From: Limnothrix sp. CACIAM 69d
GTDB lineage: Bacteria; Cyanobacteriota; Cyanobacteriia; CACIAM-69d
Direction of reading: 5' to 3'
Length of the DNA: 37,176 bases
Assembly (NCBI GenBank): GCA_001913845.2
Contig: MKGP02000052.1
Coordinates: 1 to 37,176 of the forward strand
Position numbers and translations under genes: made by a program. A model generated the notes under the pieces. It had not been told where the DNA came from. It saw only the letters and a program-made list of their open reading frames with translations, and ran no database searches. Of this stretch, positions 13,225 to 37,176 are shown piece after piece; the stretch's first letter is position 1; each line of letters opens with the position of its first letter.

Positions 13225-13350
13225 GGGTATGGCTCAGTTCAGTGGCTCAGTGGAACGGCTTTGCGGTTGAACAGCCCCGCATTTAGCGCCCCTAGCATTG
13301 CTCAATCATGATGGCTCAATCCTGTGCCAATTGGGCATGGCCGCCCTGAG

Positions 13351-13480
13351 AGGATGTCTGAAAAGTGTCTTTTGGCACGGGCAATGCACCAATAGTCGTG
13401 GGGGCAAGGAGCTTGAGCATCTTGTCTTCGTCGATCGATGAGGCGTGCAGAGTATCGATTTTGGCTTTTCAGACATCCTC
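13351..13480. mobile_element. MITE-like element, copy A (130 bp, perfect 16-bp terminal repeats)
   Basis: Bounded by GAGGATGTCTGAAAAG (13351-13366) and its exact complement (13465-13480), with direct TGA on each flank (13348-13350 and 13481-13483). It encodes nothing. The interior aligns with copy B at 25031-25181, including a degenerate form of the GGGGCTTAAGCCCC hairpin (13405-13424) and the following GTCGATCG block. Ends beginning GAG with a TNA target duplication fit the IS1031 group of the IS5 family, so a full-length parent element may exist elsewhere. It lies between the EamA gene and thiL. Confidence 0.8.
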
Positions 13481-13504
13481 TGAGCCTGGCCCAGCAGGAC
13501 AGCC

Positions 13505-19976: not shown

Positions 19977-20031
19977 TGGCCGAATAGATCGCCCTTGCCA
20001 GGTTGGCGGAAAAAGCGGCTGGGAGTCTGTC

Positions 20032-20101
20032 GTTAAATCGCCTAGAACCCTGATGCCAGCGTGATGAGATCCTGGGGGACAAGGGGCTTAAGCCCCTTGT
20101 C
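20032..20101 (-). repeat. Dispersed ~70-bp palindromic repeat, copy 1
   Basis: Read on the minus strand it begins with CAAGGGGCTTAAGCCCCTTG (20099-20080, a perfect 20-bp palindrome). A spacer with gatc follows, then atcagggtt and ggcgattt. The same order is found at 22608-22674 and 30414-30482. It lies between the converging cysK and alanine dehydrogenase genes, where the hairpin could stop transcription from both sides. Confidence 0.75.
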
Positions 20102-21561: not shown

Positions 21562-22395
21562 ATGACCATTCAGTGGCAAACCGTTAAAACCTACGAAGAC
21601 ATCCTCTACGTCAAAGCCGACGGCATCGCCAAAATCACGATCAACCGCCCCCACAAGCGCAACGCCTTCCGCCCCAAAACGGTGTTTGAACTCTACGAAG
21701 CCTTTTGTGATGCCCGCGAAGATGCGGCCGTGGGCGTGATTTTGCTGACCGGCGCGGGGCCCCACACCGATGGGAAATATGCCTTCTGTGCCGGTGGGGA
21801 TCAGAGCATTCGCGGGGAAGCGGGCTATGTGGATGAGGCCGGCGTGCCCCGGTTGAATGTGTTGGATTTGCAGCGGCTGATTCGATCGATCCCCAAGGTG
21901 ACGATCGCCCTGGTGGCGGGCTACGCGATCGGGGGTGGCCATGTGCTGCACCTGCTTTGTGACTTGACAATCGCCGCTGATAACGCGATTTTTGGGCAAA
22001 CAGGCCCGAAAGTCGGCAGCTTTGACGGCGGATTTGGAGCTAGCTACTTGGCGCGCATTGTGGGCCAGAAAAAAGCCCGCGAAATTTGGTTTTTATGTCG
22101 GCAATATGACGCGCAACAGGCCTTGGAGATGGGCCTCATCAACACCGTGGTGCCCGTGGCTGAGCTAGAAGCGGAAGGCCTGCGCTGGGCCCAAGAAGTG
22201 CTAGAGAAAAGCCCAATCGCGATTCGTTGCCTCAAAGCTGCTTTGAATGCCGATTGCGACGGGCAAGCGGGCCTGCAAGAACTGGCCGGCAACGCCACCA
22301 TGCTCTATTACATGACCGAAGAAGGCAGCGAAGGAAAACAAGCATTTCTGGAGAAGCGATCGCCCAATTTCCGCCGCTATCCCTGGCGACCCTAG
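21562..22395 (+). CDS. menB: 1,4-dihydroxy-2-naphthoyl-CoA synthase
   Basis: Crotonase-family enzyme that closes the naphthoquinone ring from o-succinylbenzoyl-CoA. In cyanobacteria this pathway makes phylloquinone for photosystem I. The 277-residue length is normal. The oxyanion-hole segments [11 protein letters not shown] and [18 protein letters not shown] are clear, as is the MenB-type [21 protein letters not shown] with the conserved Asp. The C-terminal swap segment ends [11 protein letters not shown], typical of MenB. ATG 21562 is the start. The gene is alone; a tandem repeat array begins 7 bp after its stop. Confidence 0.97.
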
Positions 22396-22402
22396 GGTCT
22401 GT

Positions 22403-22598
22403 CGTCATTTCCTAGGATCAGGCGGAAGTAATTGACTTGTCATGTTCCAATCGTCATTTCCTAGGATCAGGCGGAAGTAATTGACTTGTCATGTTCCAAT
22501 CGTCATTTCCTAGGATCAGACGGAAGTAATTGACTTGTCATGTTCCAATCGTCATTTTCTAGGATCAGACGGAAGTAATTGACTTGTCATGTTCCAAT
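22403..22598. repeat. Four tandem 49-bp repeats after menB
   Basis: Units start at 22403, 22452, 22501 and 22550. Units 1 and 2 are identical; units 3 and 4 share a G-to-A change (caga for cagg), and unit 4 has one further C-to-T. Each unit contains ttgact. The array ends where 'cgt' leads into tataat instead of a fifth unit. Confidence 0.95.
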
Positions 22599-22607
22599 CG
22601 TTATAAT
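22579..22607 (+). promoter_or_regulatory. Near-consensus sigma70 promoter at the end of the 49-bp array
   Basis: TTGACT (22579-22584), exactly 17 nt, then TATAAT (22602-22607). The -35 comes from the last repeat unit and the -10 from the sequence that replaces the next unit. The start would fall near 22614. No gene lies downstream on this strand before the terminator at 22764-22802. Confidence 0.65.
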
Positions 22608-22674
22608 AAGGGGCTTCAGCCCCTTGTCTTCCACGATCTGCTAACGGCGGGATCAGGGTTTCAGGTAATTCGAC
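22608..22674 (+). repeat. Dispersed ~70-bp palindromic repeat, copy 2
   Basis: Begins with AAGGGGCTTCAGCCCCTT (22608-22625), one change from the perfect palindrome. Then come ttgtcttccacgatc, a spacer, gatcagggtttcagg and aattcgac. It aligns with 30414-30482 in the same orientation and with 20032-20101 inverted. Confidence 0.8.
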
Positions 22675-22802
22675 AACAGGACTAAACCCCAATGGGCAGA
22701 CCTTTTCAGGTTTCTGAGTCTCAAAATTACCCTTATCAAATCAGCACAGGATTTCAACCTAAAAAATAAACCAGGAGATTCGGGTGCTCCTGGTTTATTT
22801 TT
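22614..22802 (+). ncRNA. Candidate small RNA (promoter to terminator, no convincing gene)
   Basis: Inferred from a near-consensus promoter (22579-22607) and a strong intrinsic terminator (22764-22802), giving a transcript of about 190 nt. The plus strand has no open frame worth calling. It matches no RNA family I recognise. About 60 nt of the 5' part is the dispersed repeat, so the transcript may be an accident of repeat insertion. Confidence 0.35.
22764..22802. terminator. Strong bidirectional intrinsic terminator
   Basis: AAATAAACCAGGAG (22764-22777) pairs perfectly with CTCCTGGTTTATTT (22787-22800) around a 9-nt loop. A-runs on the left and T-runs on the right (to 22802) let it work on both strands. 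Leftward it would end the Cys-rich gene at 22969-23310; rightward it would end the candidate small RNA. Confidence 0.85.
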
Positions 22803-22968
22803 CGCTTTTGGGTGATTGATGACATGGTGTTTACCCAGTTGCATCCATCAACCGCTAATGATGGGTCAAAATTGGTTTTAATCGTTGTTTCAGTCCCTAT
22901 TTCAACCCCTGTAACGATCTTTAAGTATTAATCCTTAAGCCTTGATTGCCAACAACTTGACTGATCCC

Positions 22969-23310
22969 CTAGGCAATGGAAGCAGAAGCATTCGATCGCA
23001 AAACCGGCGTAGTGGCCGTCAAAGCCGCTTCATTTTTAAATTCCACCGTTGACACGATTGCCACGCCCGTTTCTGCGGGGCTGTGAACCAACCGCTCTAA
23101 CGATTCCCAAGATGGAGCGAATGCTGGCATTGCGAGCGGACAAGCCTTCCAGCCCGCGCGAACCACTGCATCAAACTGGCCGCAATATCCACCACGTCGC
23201 CCTTCTGGGGTGTAGTAGCGACAATGGCGGCAAGCAGAAACTTGGAAGGGCGTAGCACTCATATTTTGCACTGCCAACGCAGAGCGCCGCTGAGAATTTG
23301 CTAACTTCAT
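22969..23310 (-). CDS. Small Cys-rich conserved cyanobacterial protein
   Basis: Unnamed family, 113 residues from ATG 23310 or 97 from ATG 23262 (MSATPF). The conserved part is about 25-65: ACRHCRYYTPEGRRGGYC and, further on, WKACPLAMPAFAPSW. Four Cys in the order CxxC...C...C suggest a small zinc or iron-sulfur site. From memory, similar proteins with CRYY and GRRGGxC motifs are widespread in cyanobacteria. No signal peptide or membrane segment. The C-terminal 45 residues are Ala/Ser/Thr-rich and less conserved in character. It is the only gene between menB and the DciA-like gene and probably uses the bidirectional terminator at 22764. Confidence 0.75.
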   Translation of the reverse strand: MKLANSQRRSALAVQNMSATPFQVSACRHCRYYTPEGRRGGYCGQFDAVVRAGWKACPLAMPAFAPSWESLERLVHSPAETGVAIVSTVEFKNEAALTATTPVLRSNASASIA

Positions 23311-24697: not shown

Positions 24698-25030
24698 AGG
24701 GGCTAAGCAACAGGGATTTGGGAAATCACCGGGATCGATCGAGCCAGTCAGCTCCCCGGATTCAGCTCATGGCCCTATTTAACTCCGCGAATTCACTAAC
24801 AACTCACGACTCAGAATCAGTTCGATCAGGTTAAATTCGATCAGGTTGAATCTGCGTTGAATCCGCTCGAATTGGGTTCGTTCAGGCTGCATCAGCTCAG
24901 ATCACAGCAGCTCAGATCACAGCGGCTCAGATTCAGAACCCGTGGGAAAGCCTTATGAGTTAGGCAAACAGCGTTTAATCTGGACAAACGCTTCGCAAAA
25001 TCTAAAATAGGCGAGAAGCAAGCCCGCTGA
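24698..25030. other. Spacer rich in 15-bp micro-repeats
   Basis: No gene. ttcgatcaggttaaa / ttcgatcaggttgaa lies at 24821-24850. cagctcagatcacag occurs twice at 24893-24922, with a degenerate third copy to 24937. All these units are 15 bp long although their sequences differ. MITE copy B follows immediately. Confidence 0.6.
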
Positions 25031-25181
25031 GAGGATGTTTGAAAAATATCTTGCAGCCCTAGTCAAGCCCCAATCGTTGTCGGGGCAAGGGGCTTAAGCC
25101 CCTTGTCTGTGTCGATCGCTATTGATCGCTATCGATCGCTGGGGAAAGCGGTGTATCCATTTTGGCTTGTCAGACATCCTC
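25031..25181. mobile_element. MITE-like element, copy B (151 bp)
   Basis: Ends match copy A: GAGGATGTTTGAAAAA on the left and the complement of GAGGATGTCTGACAAG on the right (13 of 16 positions pair). TGA flanks both sides (25028-25030 and 25182-25184). The interior contains the perfect palindrome CAAGGGGCTTAAGCCCCTTG (25086-25105) and a short expansion of atcgatcgct units, which accounts for its extra length over copy A. It encodes nothing. Confidence 0.8.
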
Positions 25182-25198
25182 TGAGGCATTCGTTTAAT

Positions 25199-29162: not shown

Positions 29163-30380
29163 ATGCAATTTGCCGATCGACTGAAACCGCTGCAATTTAA
29201 CGTGTTTGCGGCCATGGATCGGGCGAAGGCTGCGGCGGCTGAAACCCACGAGATTGTGGATTTATCGCTGGGATCGGTGGACTTGCCCACTTCGCCCCAT
29301 GTGCTGTCAGCGATCGGGGAAGCGCTTCAGGATCCCAGCACCCACGGCTACCAACTCTTTCGCAATACGGCGGCCTTCCGACAGGCGGCGGCCGATCGCT
29401 ACGAGCGGCAATTTGGCCTGGCGATCGACCCGGAAACGGAAGTGCTGGCCTTAATTGGCTCCCAGGAAGGAACCGCTCACTTACCCCTAGCGGTTTTAAA
29501 CCCGGGGGATGTGGCCCTGCTGGGCGATCCGGGCTATCCCTCCCACTACGGCGGCGTGCATTTGGCGGGCGGTGAGGTTTATCCCATGCCGCTATTGGCA
29601 AAACATGGCTATTTGCCCCAGCTTGAGCAAATTCCGCCGGCCGTGGTCGATCGGGCGCGGCTGATGGTGCTGAACTATCCCCACAACCCGACCACAGCGG
29701 TGGCTGACCTGGCCTTTTTCCGGCGGGCGGTGGCGTTTTGTCAGCAGCACGGCATCGTGTTGATTCATGATTTTGCCTACGACGGAATGGCCTTTGGCGA
29801 TCACCCGCCGTCGGTGTTGCAAGCGGATCCAGACAAGACAGTTTCGATCGAGTTTTTCACCCTGTCTAAGGCCTTTAATATGGGCGGCTTTCGGGCGGGC
29901 TATGCCATCGGTAACCGCGACCTGATTGCAGCCCTGCGCAGTGTCAAGGCTGCCGTGGACTTTAACCAATACCAGGGCATTTTCAGGGGGGCGATCGCAG
30001 CGCTTCAGGGGCCCCAAGCCGATGTGCAAGAACGGTTAGCCATTTTTCGCGATCGCCGGGATGCGTTTGTGGCCGCCATGAATCGGATTGGTTGGCCCCT
30101 GGAAACGCCCCAAGCGACGATGTTCGCCTGGGCTAAGTTGCCGCCGCCTTGGGAAAACCAATCGATCGAATTCTGCAAGCAACTGGTGGCCGCCACAGGC
30201 ATCGCCGTAGCACCGGGGGTGGGCTTTGGCCCTTCCGGTGAAGGCTATGTGCGGTTTGCCCTGGTGCAAACCCCGGAGCAGTTGGCGCATTCGGTCGATC
30301 GCATCGCCGCCTTTTTACAAACCGGCTTACCAGCCGACCACAAAGATCAGGACCTGTTGTCACTTCCTGGAATCCAGTAA
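29163..30380 (+). CDS. Class I/II PLP aminotransferase (LL-DAP aminotransferase-like)
   Basis: Fold-type I aminotransferase of 405 residues. The PLP lysine is in TLSKAFNMGGFRAGYA (Lys236). Cofactor-contact residues are in YPHNPT (Asn175) and HDFAYDG (Asp203, Tyr206), and GYRxxR-like ring contacts appear as GFGPSGEGYVRFAL near the C-terminus. The opening LSLGSVDLPTSP and HGYQLF are typical of DapL/DapC and related aspartate-family transaminases. The exact substrate cannot be fixed from sequence; LL-diaminopimelate and other amino acids are possible. ATG 29163 is preferred to the frame start at 29100, which would overlap the thioredoxin gene. A dispersed palindromic repeat starts 34 bp after its stop. 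Confidence 0.87.
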   Translation: MQFADRLKPLQFNVFAAMDRAKAAAAETHEIVDLSLGSVDLPTSPHVLSAIGEALQDPSTHGYQLFRNTAAFRQAAADRYERQFGLAIDPETEVLALIGSQEGTAHLPLAVLNPGDVALLGDPGYPSHYGGVHLAGGEVYPMPLLAKHGYLPQLEQIPPAVVDRARLMVLNYPHNPTTAVADLAFFRRAVAFCQQHGIVLIHDFAYDGMAFGDHPPSVLQADPDKTVSIEFFTLSKAFNMGGFRAGYAIGNRDLIAALRSVKAAVDFNQYQGIFRGAIAALQGPQADVQERLAIFRDRRDAFVAAMNRIGWPLETPQATMFAWAKLPPPWENQSIEFCKQLVAATGIAVAPGVGFGPSGEGYVRFALVQTPEQLAHSVDRIAAFLQTGLPADHKDQDLLSLPGIQ

Positions 30381-30413
30381 AAATGGCTGATCTTCCATAC
30401 CCTAACCACCCTA

Positions 30414-30482
30414 GACAAGGGGCTTAAGCCCCTTGCCCCTACGATCCACCAACGGTGGAATCAGGGTTTCAGGCGATTTGAC
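30414..30482 (+). repeat. Dispersed ~70-bp palindromic repeat, copy 3
   Basis: Perfect palindrome CAAGGGGCTTAAGCCCCTTG (30416-30435), then acgatcc, a spacer, aatcagggtttcagg and gatttgac. It lies between the converging aminotransferase and His-rich genes, the same convergent setting as copy 1. Confidence 0.8.
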
Positions 30483-30577
30483 GACAAGCCCTAATCACTG
30501 CAAAGGTTGGTCACCACAAAGGTTAATCAACGGCTGAATAATTGCTGAAAGGCAGATCAACCTTTTGCCCTCAGTCC

Positions 30578-36133: not shown

Positions 36134-37176
36134 ATGGACGAGCAACGGCTTGAGGCTTATTTGCAATTAATTCAGCAGTTGTTGGCTTGTCCGGCGGGGG
36201 AAGAGACAAGCGTTTTGCAAGGCCAGGCGGAGTTGGTGGATGCGGGGCTGGTGGAGGTGATGGGACAGGTAGCTGACCTAATGCTGGAAAAGGGAGACAA
36301 CAACGCCGGTTGGTTGCGGCAGTTTGCGGGACAGGTGGCGCAGGCGTTGGGGCTGGAGCAGTCGAGCGCGAGTAGCGCGGAGGATATGGATCAGTTTGTG
36401 GGGGAGGTAATGGGGCAGATTGCCCAAACTCAAGGAAATCCAGCGCAGGTTTATGGGTTTTGGCAGGCTAATTTAGATCGATTTAACTCAGAGTTTTTAA
36501 TAACGTTGCCAATTATATTTCGCTGTTTGATTGGGCAAAATGATCCCAAATTAATTGCAGCGATCTTTGGTACTTTTGGTAATTTGATTCGGCAGTTTCC
36601 CTTGGGCGTTCGTTGGCTGAATTTGGAACTGGCGATCGCCGCCTACGAACGGGCACTAGAAGTCTATGCCTGCGATGCCTTTCCTCAAGATTGGGCTATG
36701 ACTCAAAACAACCTGGCCAATGCTTACAACCAACGCATCCGAGGGGAGCGAGCGGACAACCTGGAACAGGCGATCTCCGCCTACGAACGGGCGCTGGAAG
36801 TCTATGCCCGCGATACCTTTCCTGAAGATTGGGCTATGACCCAAAACAATCTGGCCGCTGCTTACAGCGATCGCATCCGAGGGGAGCGGGCGGATAACCT
36901 GGAACAGGCGATCTCCGCCTGCGAGCGGGCGCTGGAAGTCAGAACCCGCGAGGCGTTTCCTGAACAATGGGCTATGACCCAAAACAACTTGGCCGCTGCT
37001 TACAGCGATCGTATCCAAGGGGAGCGGGCGGACAACTTGGAAATGGCAATCGGTGCCTACGAACGGGCGCTGGAAGTCAGAACCCGCGAGGCGTTTCCTG
37101 AACAATGGGCTATGACCCAAAACAACTTGGCCGCTGCTTACCGCGATCGTATCCAAGGGGAACGGGCGGACAACTT
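36134..37176 (+). CDS. Tetratricopeptide-repeat protein, partial at the window end (TPR-CHAT type likely)
   Basis: Open from ATG 36134 to the window edge (347 codons, no stop). Residues 1-163 form a helical N-terminal domain beginning MDEQRLEAYLQLIQQLLACP. From memory, this start is characteristic of large cyanobacterial TPR proteins that end in a CHAT caspase-like domain; the CHAT part, if present, lies beyond the window. From residue 164 run four TPR-like units of 46 residues, each with AYERALEVY/R, FPE.WAMTQNNLA.AY and DRI.GERADN. GAGGGA and GAGG lie 12-20 nt upstream of the start. TPR-CHAT proteases act in bacterial cell death and in type III-E CRISPR; a defence role here is inference, helped by the toxin-antitoxin genes beside it. 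Confidence 0.85.
   Translation, partial: MDEQRLEAYLQLIQQLLACPAGEETSVLQGQAELVDAGLVEVMGQVADLMLEKGDNNAGWLRQFAGQVAQALGLEQSSASSAEDMDQFVGEVMGQIAQTQGNPAQVYGFWQANLDRFNSEFLITLPIIFRCLIGQNDPKLIAAIFGTFGNLIRQFPLGVRWLNLELAIAAYERALEVYACDAFPQDWAMTQNNLANAYNQRIRGERADNLEQAISAYERALEVYARDTFPEDWAMTQNNLAAAYSDRIRGERADNLEQAISACERALEVRTREAFPEQWAMTQNNLAAAYSDRIQGERADNLEMAIGAYERALEVRTREAFPEQWAMTQNNLAAAYRDRIQGERADN
36623..37174 (+). repeat. Four 138-bp in-gene repeats
   Basis: Units begin at 36623, 36761, 36899 and 37037, each exactly 138 bp (46 codons). Units 3 and 4 are nearly identical at DNA level, including synonymous positions, which indicates recent duplication or gene conversion. The fourth is cut by the window edge. 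Confidence 0.93.

Follow-up and report, generated by a model that had tools for sequence, protein, structure and literature searches.

Downstream of the menB gene of Limnothrix sp. CACIAM 69d, an array of tandem repeats, a near-consensus promoter sequence and a strong intrinsic terminator follow one another within a few hundred nucleotides. Is this locus a gene for a small RNA (sRNA), or did the parts that suggest one come together by accident? The locus was analyzed within a stretch of 37,176 nt (positions 1 to 37,176 of contig MKGP02000052.1, assembly GCA_001913845.2; hereafter, the window), and it was compared with related genomes, in particular the two congeners G001 and G002. The features are compiled in Table 1.

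Table 1. Features of the menB downstream region, with positions in the window
Feature	Position	Strand	Remarks
menB (enoyl-CoA hydratase family)	21562-22395	+	Pfam ECH_1, E = 2.3e-73
Left TA, target-site duplication	22393-22394		single TA at the empty site of G002
MITE-like element, 288 bp in the window	22395-22682	+	imperfect terminal inverted repeats GGGTCTGTCGTC... / ...GACAACAGGAC
Tandem array, four near-identical 49-bp units	22402-22597	+	amplified left part of the element
Promoter-like TTGACT-17-TATAAT	22579-22607	+	11/12 matches; derived from family consensus TTGATT-17-YGTAAC
Central palindrome AAGGGGCTTCAGCCCCTT of the element	22608-22625		predicted transcription start in left arm
Right TA, target-site duplication	22683-22684		from comparison with the empty site of G002
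Intrinsic terminator, 16-bp stem, T-rich on both strands	22762-22802		between convergent genes; older than the element
Convergent 113-aa ORF	22969-23310	-	conserved in relatives

Array, promoter-like site and terminator

Most of what had been described from the sequence alone was borne out. TRF reported a tandem array at 22402-22601 with a period of 49, 4.1 copies and 98% matches and, together with a comparison of the units, this verified the four 49-bp repeats. The claimed spacing of the promoter-like site was also correct: the -35 hexamer TTGACT (22579-22584) and the -10 hexamer TATAAT (22602-22607) are separated by exactly 17 nt and together have 11 of 12 matches to the consensus. This is the top-ranked promoter-like site of the whole 37-kb window. 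Sites with at least 11/12 matches occurred 0.08 times per window in Markov-shuffled windows, and the probability of such a site on the local plus strand was about 0.0055. The predicted start (22613-22615) does fall into the left arm of the central palindrome, and the terminator merits being called strong, with perfect 16-bp arms (22762-22777 and 22787-22802) and a loop of 9 nt. At the level of sequence, the promoter of its own and the intrinsic terminator that are expected of a trans-encoded sRNA gene are both present.

The account of how the promoter-like site arose had to be revised. According to the sequence-only reading, a fifth unit had been replaced by TATAAT, and the array thereby created the promoter. 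The sequence that follows unit 4 turned out to be the normal continuation of a dispersed element, which occurs elsewhere in the genome in a single-copy form with one 49-bp unit and then the same continuation. Both hexamers are contained in this single-copy sequence of the element, and the -10 hexamer lies outside the 49-bp unit.

The dispersed element

Searches of the species' own genome yielded 27 matches with the array and 48 matches with unit 4 plus its continuation. Most full copies consist of a single unit, the palindrome and the right end. Aligned, the element is about 146 bp long including both TA dinucleotides and reads TA-GGGCCTGTCGTCATTTCCTAGGATCAGG ... GACAAGGGGCTTAAGCCCCTTGTC ... 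GATTTGACGACAGGCCC-TA; its consensus was compiled by eye from aligned copies and then used in the later comparison of copies. The inverted ends are GGGCCTGTCGTC, and the target TA is duplicated. The terminal inverted repeats, TAGGGCCTGTCGTC / GACGACAGGCCCTA, form a closing stem of 15 bp in copy L014 and are imperfect in the window copy. A consensus-like copy folds as one long hairpin (z = -6.8). The pattern of the ends was matched 208 times in G000, 256 times in G001 and 58 times in G002, compared with 6-10 matches of a reversed control. Array, promoter-like site and palindrome all lie within one copy of this element, bounded by the two TA dinucleotides listed in Table 1, and subtraction of three 49-bp units from its 288 bp leaves 141 bp, the size of the family (about 142 bp).

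The element is short, lacks coding capacity and is present in dozens of copies in each of the three congeneric genomes. Being multicopy and non-coding, with inverted repeats and a target-site duplication, it is a MITE. Because duplication of a TA target is a hallmark of IS630/Tc1-mariner elements such as ISY100 (PMC2170065), it is probably a MITE of this kind, for which a parent element was not found: the DDE_3 (IS630) loci of G000-G002 and relatives were scanned both for the ends of the element and for TA-flanked inverted ends, and no transposase with these ends was detected. At the DDE_3 loci of the genus, the ends are different or not recognisable.

Outside the genus, a sample of about 190 genomes from the class yielded no full copies. 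G004, a member of the same family, contains partial matches of about 80 bp, and beyond this genome the matches outside the genus comprise almost exclusively the palindrome of 22-26 bp. The MITE family described here is apparently limited to one genus.

Insertion at the menB stop codon

Comparison of the menB locus with G002 revealed an empty site. G002 reads GACCC-TA-AGCC, whereas the window reads GACCC-TA-(288 bp)-TA-AACC, and the joined flanks of the window align to G002 without gaps for more than 240 bp. The menB stop codon is TAA at the empty site; in the window it is TAG (22393-22395), with the TA contributed by the insertion target and the G by the first base of the element. Hence, the TA of the menB stop codon was the target of the element, whose insertion converted TAA to TAG, and the MenB protein remained unchanged because the G of the new stop codon comes from the element. 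We take menB, based on its family membership and general knowledge, to encode 1,4-dihydroxy-2-naphthoyl-CoA synthase of vitamin K synthesis; its protein has 99% identical counterparts in G001 and G002.

Two further copies of the element also have exact single-TA empty sites in G002. These sites bear on an alternative view of the family, namely that it is a REP-like palindromic repeat spread by recombination and not by transposition. The central palindrome does occur alone and in other cyanobacteria, and partial and tandem copies of the element exist, but exact TA-duplicating empty sites at three loci and terminal repeats that are well matched in many copies make such an origin very unlikely.

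The location at a stop codon is shared by other copies. For twelve sampled element ends, the position coincides exactly with the stop codon that closes an open frame of 150 codons or more (L003, L004, L006, L007, L008, L011, L012, L056, L061, L064, L065 and the window copy at 22393); the corresponding counts in the other two frames were 0 and 1. The stop codon is TAG or, in two copies of G002, TAA. Because the ends begin with TA-G, a stop codon is regained whichever way round the element inserts at TAA or TAG. Nothing specific about MITEs making new stop codons was found in the literature.

A second pattern concerns palindromes. The half-palindrome AAGGGGCT was found directly outside the TA in 31 of 105 flanks, with 0.8 expected, and on both flanks in eight copies (L010, L014, L015, L019, L053, L082, L083 and L085). 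Such copies sit inside other AAGGGGCT-TA-AGCCCCTT palindromes, nested at their central TA. As the centre of the element has the same palindrome sequence, it is itself a landing site for its kin. The palindrome ACAAGGGGCTTAAGCCCCTTGT, about 22-24 bp long, is present in the window at 20079-20101, 22608-22625, 25082-25106 and 30414-30435, and it is dispersed, often exactly, across genomes of many cyanobacterial families, where the remainder of the element is missing; no paper on this sequence was found. The window also contains a second full-length copy of the element (30349-30493, 80% to the consensus) and a right half on the minus strand (20027-20100). A second MITE-like repeat with the ends GAGAGGATGTYTGAAAA occurs at 25029-25183 and 13348-13482; the copy at 25029 has the same central palindrome, and one such repeat carries the element L014 within its palindrome. 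A 138-bp tandem repeat is present in four copies (36624-37174, 89% matching), which probably code for protein repeats.

Origin of the 49-bp array

The junction between two units was found only at the window array in the three genomes searched (G000, G001 and G002), and the left 49 bp of the element were thus amplified on this one occasion. The word GTCGT is present at positions 9 and 58 of the family consensus, exactly 49 bp apart, and slippage between these two words would explain both the length and the ends of the unit. The array most likely grew by slipped mispairing between them. All four units share the changes that set the window copy apart from the family; the amplification therefore took place later than the insertion and the first decay.

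These observations also concern the idea that the array is a functional tandem operator or enhancer, whose four TTGACT hexamers attract RNA polymerase or a regulator on behalf of the promoter at its end. The position of four near-perfect units immediately before a -10 hexamer would suit such a role. Nevertheless, we regard it as extremely unlikely, as only the last TTGACT has a suitable distance to the -10 hexamer, the array is unique in three genomes, and the unit amounts to no more than a transposable element's left end.

Origin of the promoter-like site

In 59 sampled readable copies, the -10 position was CGTAAC in 32 cases, TGTAAC in 19 cases and TATAAT in a single case, the window copy. 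At the -35 position, 36 copies have TTGATT and a few have TTGACT. The match to the promoter consensus is 8/12 for the family consensus and 9/12 for the next-best copy, compared with 11/12 for the window copy. The window copy differs from the consensus at 25 positions, including 21 transitions, 16 of which are C:G to T:A, and both changes in the -10 hexamer are of this commonest type. When decay was simulated at the rates of the window copy, at least 11/12 matches were reached in 0.2% of the copies. Taking about 100 copies per genome (half of the 208 terminal repeat matches), chance creation of such a site is expected at most about 0.2 times per genome. A chance origin is thus unlikely for any given genome, yet it is unremarkable in a scan that seeks such sites. 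Since the site is rarer than chance usually gives, both per shuffled window and per genome, selection on the promoter is possible, but it is not required.

Age of the terminator and conservation of the locus

G002, which lacks the element, retains a terminator with a 16-bp stem, in which TAAACC/GGTTTA is changed to TGAACC/GGTTCA, a compensatory exchange of A-T to G-C. As the terminator is present in an element-free genome, it is the older part and predates the element, and the promoter is the newcomer. In G001, the gene order is kept and both the element and the terminator are absent. Among the relatives searched, the stretch from 22685 to 22968 matched only G002.

The flanking genes are retained in G001 and G002 without array and promoter. 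The 113-aa protein has 98% identity in G002, and its homologues adjoin menB in the loci of G001 (70%), G004 (67%) and G023 (45%), so the ORF is a real conserved gene. Promoter, array and terminator are not kept together: G002 has the terminator alone, and G001 has none of the three. The three parts are of different ages and thus do not travel together. Relatives that keep the flanking genes and lack the promoter had been named in the sequence-only reading as the finding that would refute an sRNA gene, and exactly this was observed, which contradicts a conserved sRNA gene. The promoter-terminator unit of the proposed sRNA layout does exist, and a short transcript from it is plausible, but the unit is not conserved in either congener. 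This is the pattern that a MITE landing upstream of an older terminator would leave, and it is not the one expected for a conserved sRNA gene.

The putative transcript

From the sequence, an RNA of about 190 nt reaching from about 22614 to about 22803 is plausible. The transcribed part, including the terminator, folds barely better than shuffled sequences (z = -1.3). Searches of Rfam at gathering and at permissive thresholds gave only chance matches to snoRNAs far below the cut-off, and no conserved RNA structure beyond the terminator was found by these two approaches. A 25-codon ATG frame that starts near 22691, inside the putative transcript, was dropped, as it is not kept in G002. Taken together, a selected sRNA gene is supported by neither conservation nor anatomy. 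We classify the locus as a MITE and not as an sRNA gene.

Alternatively, the locus might be a newly born sRNA gene. The MITE would then have supplied the promoter and the 5' part, and the host the terminator, of a functional RNA that acts, for example, on the mRNA of menB or of the convergent gene, or as a decoy. An 11/12 promoter with a 17-nt spacer, present in no other copy, and a strong terminator about 190 nt downstream are consistent with this proposal, and there is a precedent in Coxiella CbsR16, the -10 element of which stems from a QMITE2 insert (PMC5896051). We nonetheless consider it unlikely: the unit is missing from both congeners, the fold is only slightly better than that of shuffles, the 25-codon frame is not kept in G002, there is no Rfam match, and the sequence changes fit ordinary decay. 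The more specific version, in which a de novo sRNA is caught at birth, with the array tuning the RNA of about 190 nt, and has been taken up for use in the species, is decidedly improbable.

Very probably, the locus is an accidental assembly of a decayed copy of a genus-specific MITE at the menB stop codon, a later array, AT-ward decay and a pre-existing terminator. In the proposed course of events, a genus-specific, non-autonomous, TA-duplicating, IS630/Tc1-mariner-like MITE landed on the TA of the menB stop codon, as the empty site shows. In the inserted copy, the leftmost 49 bp were then amplified to four units, for which the words and their distance can be read directly and slippage is the presumed route. 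Independently, as the alignment of copies shows, AT-ward decay turned the weak TTGATT-17-YGTAAC into TTGACT-17-TATAAT. RNA polymerase probably starts near 22614 at some level, and transcription would stop near 22803, at the terminator that already lay between the menB and 113-aa genes. The product would be a by-product RNA of about 190 nt, composed of the right half of the MITE and the 3' UTR of menB, and we do not expect it to have a dedicated function.

Comparison with known systems

MITEs have been described in cyanobacteria, one of them being Nezha. The type II MITEs of Anabaena sp. 90 are 77-541 bp long, non-coding, multicopy and mostly intergenic, and have terminal inverted repeats (PMC3542288). 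The element of the window resembles the cyanobacterial MITEs and ISY100 in being short, non-coding and multicopy with terminal inverted repeats, and in duplicating TA as ISY100 does (PMC2170065). It differs from them in its sequence, in the confinement of full copies to one genus in our searches, in that no parent transposase was found and, for the window copy, in its internal minisatellite.

A minisatellite within a MITE is likewise known from BrickBuilt of Porphyromonas gingivalis, which has promoter activity in its leader and tail (PMC4596501). The 23-bp repeat of BrickBuilt belongs to the family as such and differs from strain to strain, whereas the 49-bp array arose accidentally in a single copy. 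Sigma-70 promoters are commonly found in MITEs, examples being Correia elements, MITEAba12, BrickBuilt and QMITE1 (PMC10969869). The Correia elements of Neisseria resemble the window copy in being small MITEs whose sigma-70 promoters can drive transcription of adjacent sequence (PMC10969869). In Correia subtypes the promoter is a family trait, in contrast to the present family, in which the consensus has only 8/12 matches and one copy has drifted to 11/12.

A similar arrangement is that of QMITE1 and QMITE2 in Coxiella (CbsR3, CbsR13 and CbsR16; PMC5896051), where, as here, a -10 element of a MITE lies beside a host terminator, often in the 3' UTR of a gene, and an sRNA-like unit results. The gene of CbsR16 and its neighbour have a common bidirectional terminator (PMC5896051). 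RNA-seq demonstrated the CbsR RNAs, with Northern blots in addition for CbsR3 and CbsR13, and different strains have the loci in common (PMC5896051); the unit in the window differs in being not conserved and known from sequence. Promoters carried by MITEs, sRNAs derived from MITEs and minisatellites within them are all known, and the present case would work like these systems.

In summary, with the empty site as a baseline, this locus shows how promoter, array and terminator can line up stepwise and without selection into an apparent sRNA gene: an element lands on a stop codon, slippage acts locally, and a weak promoter-like match decays towards AT. The locus calls for caution with sRNA predictions based solely on a promoter and a terminator in MITE-rich cyanobacteria, and the analysis describes a family of MITEs, apparently limited to one genus, whose copies often coincide exactly with stop codons or occupy the middle of other palindromic repeats.
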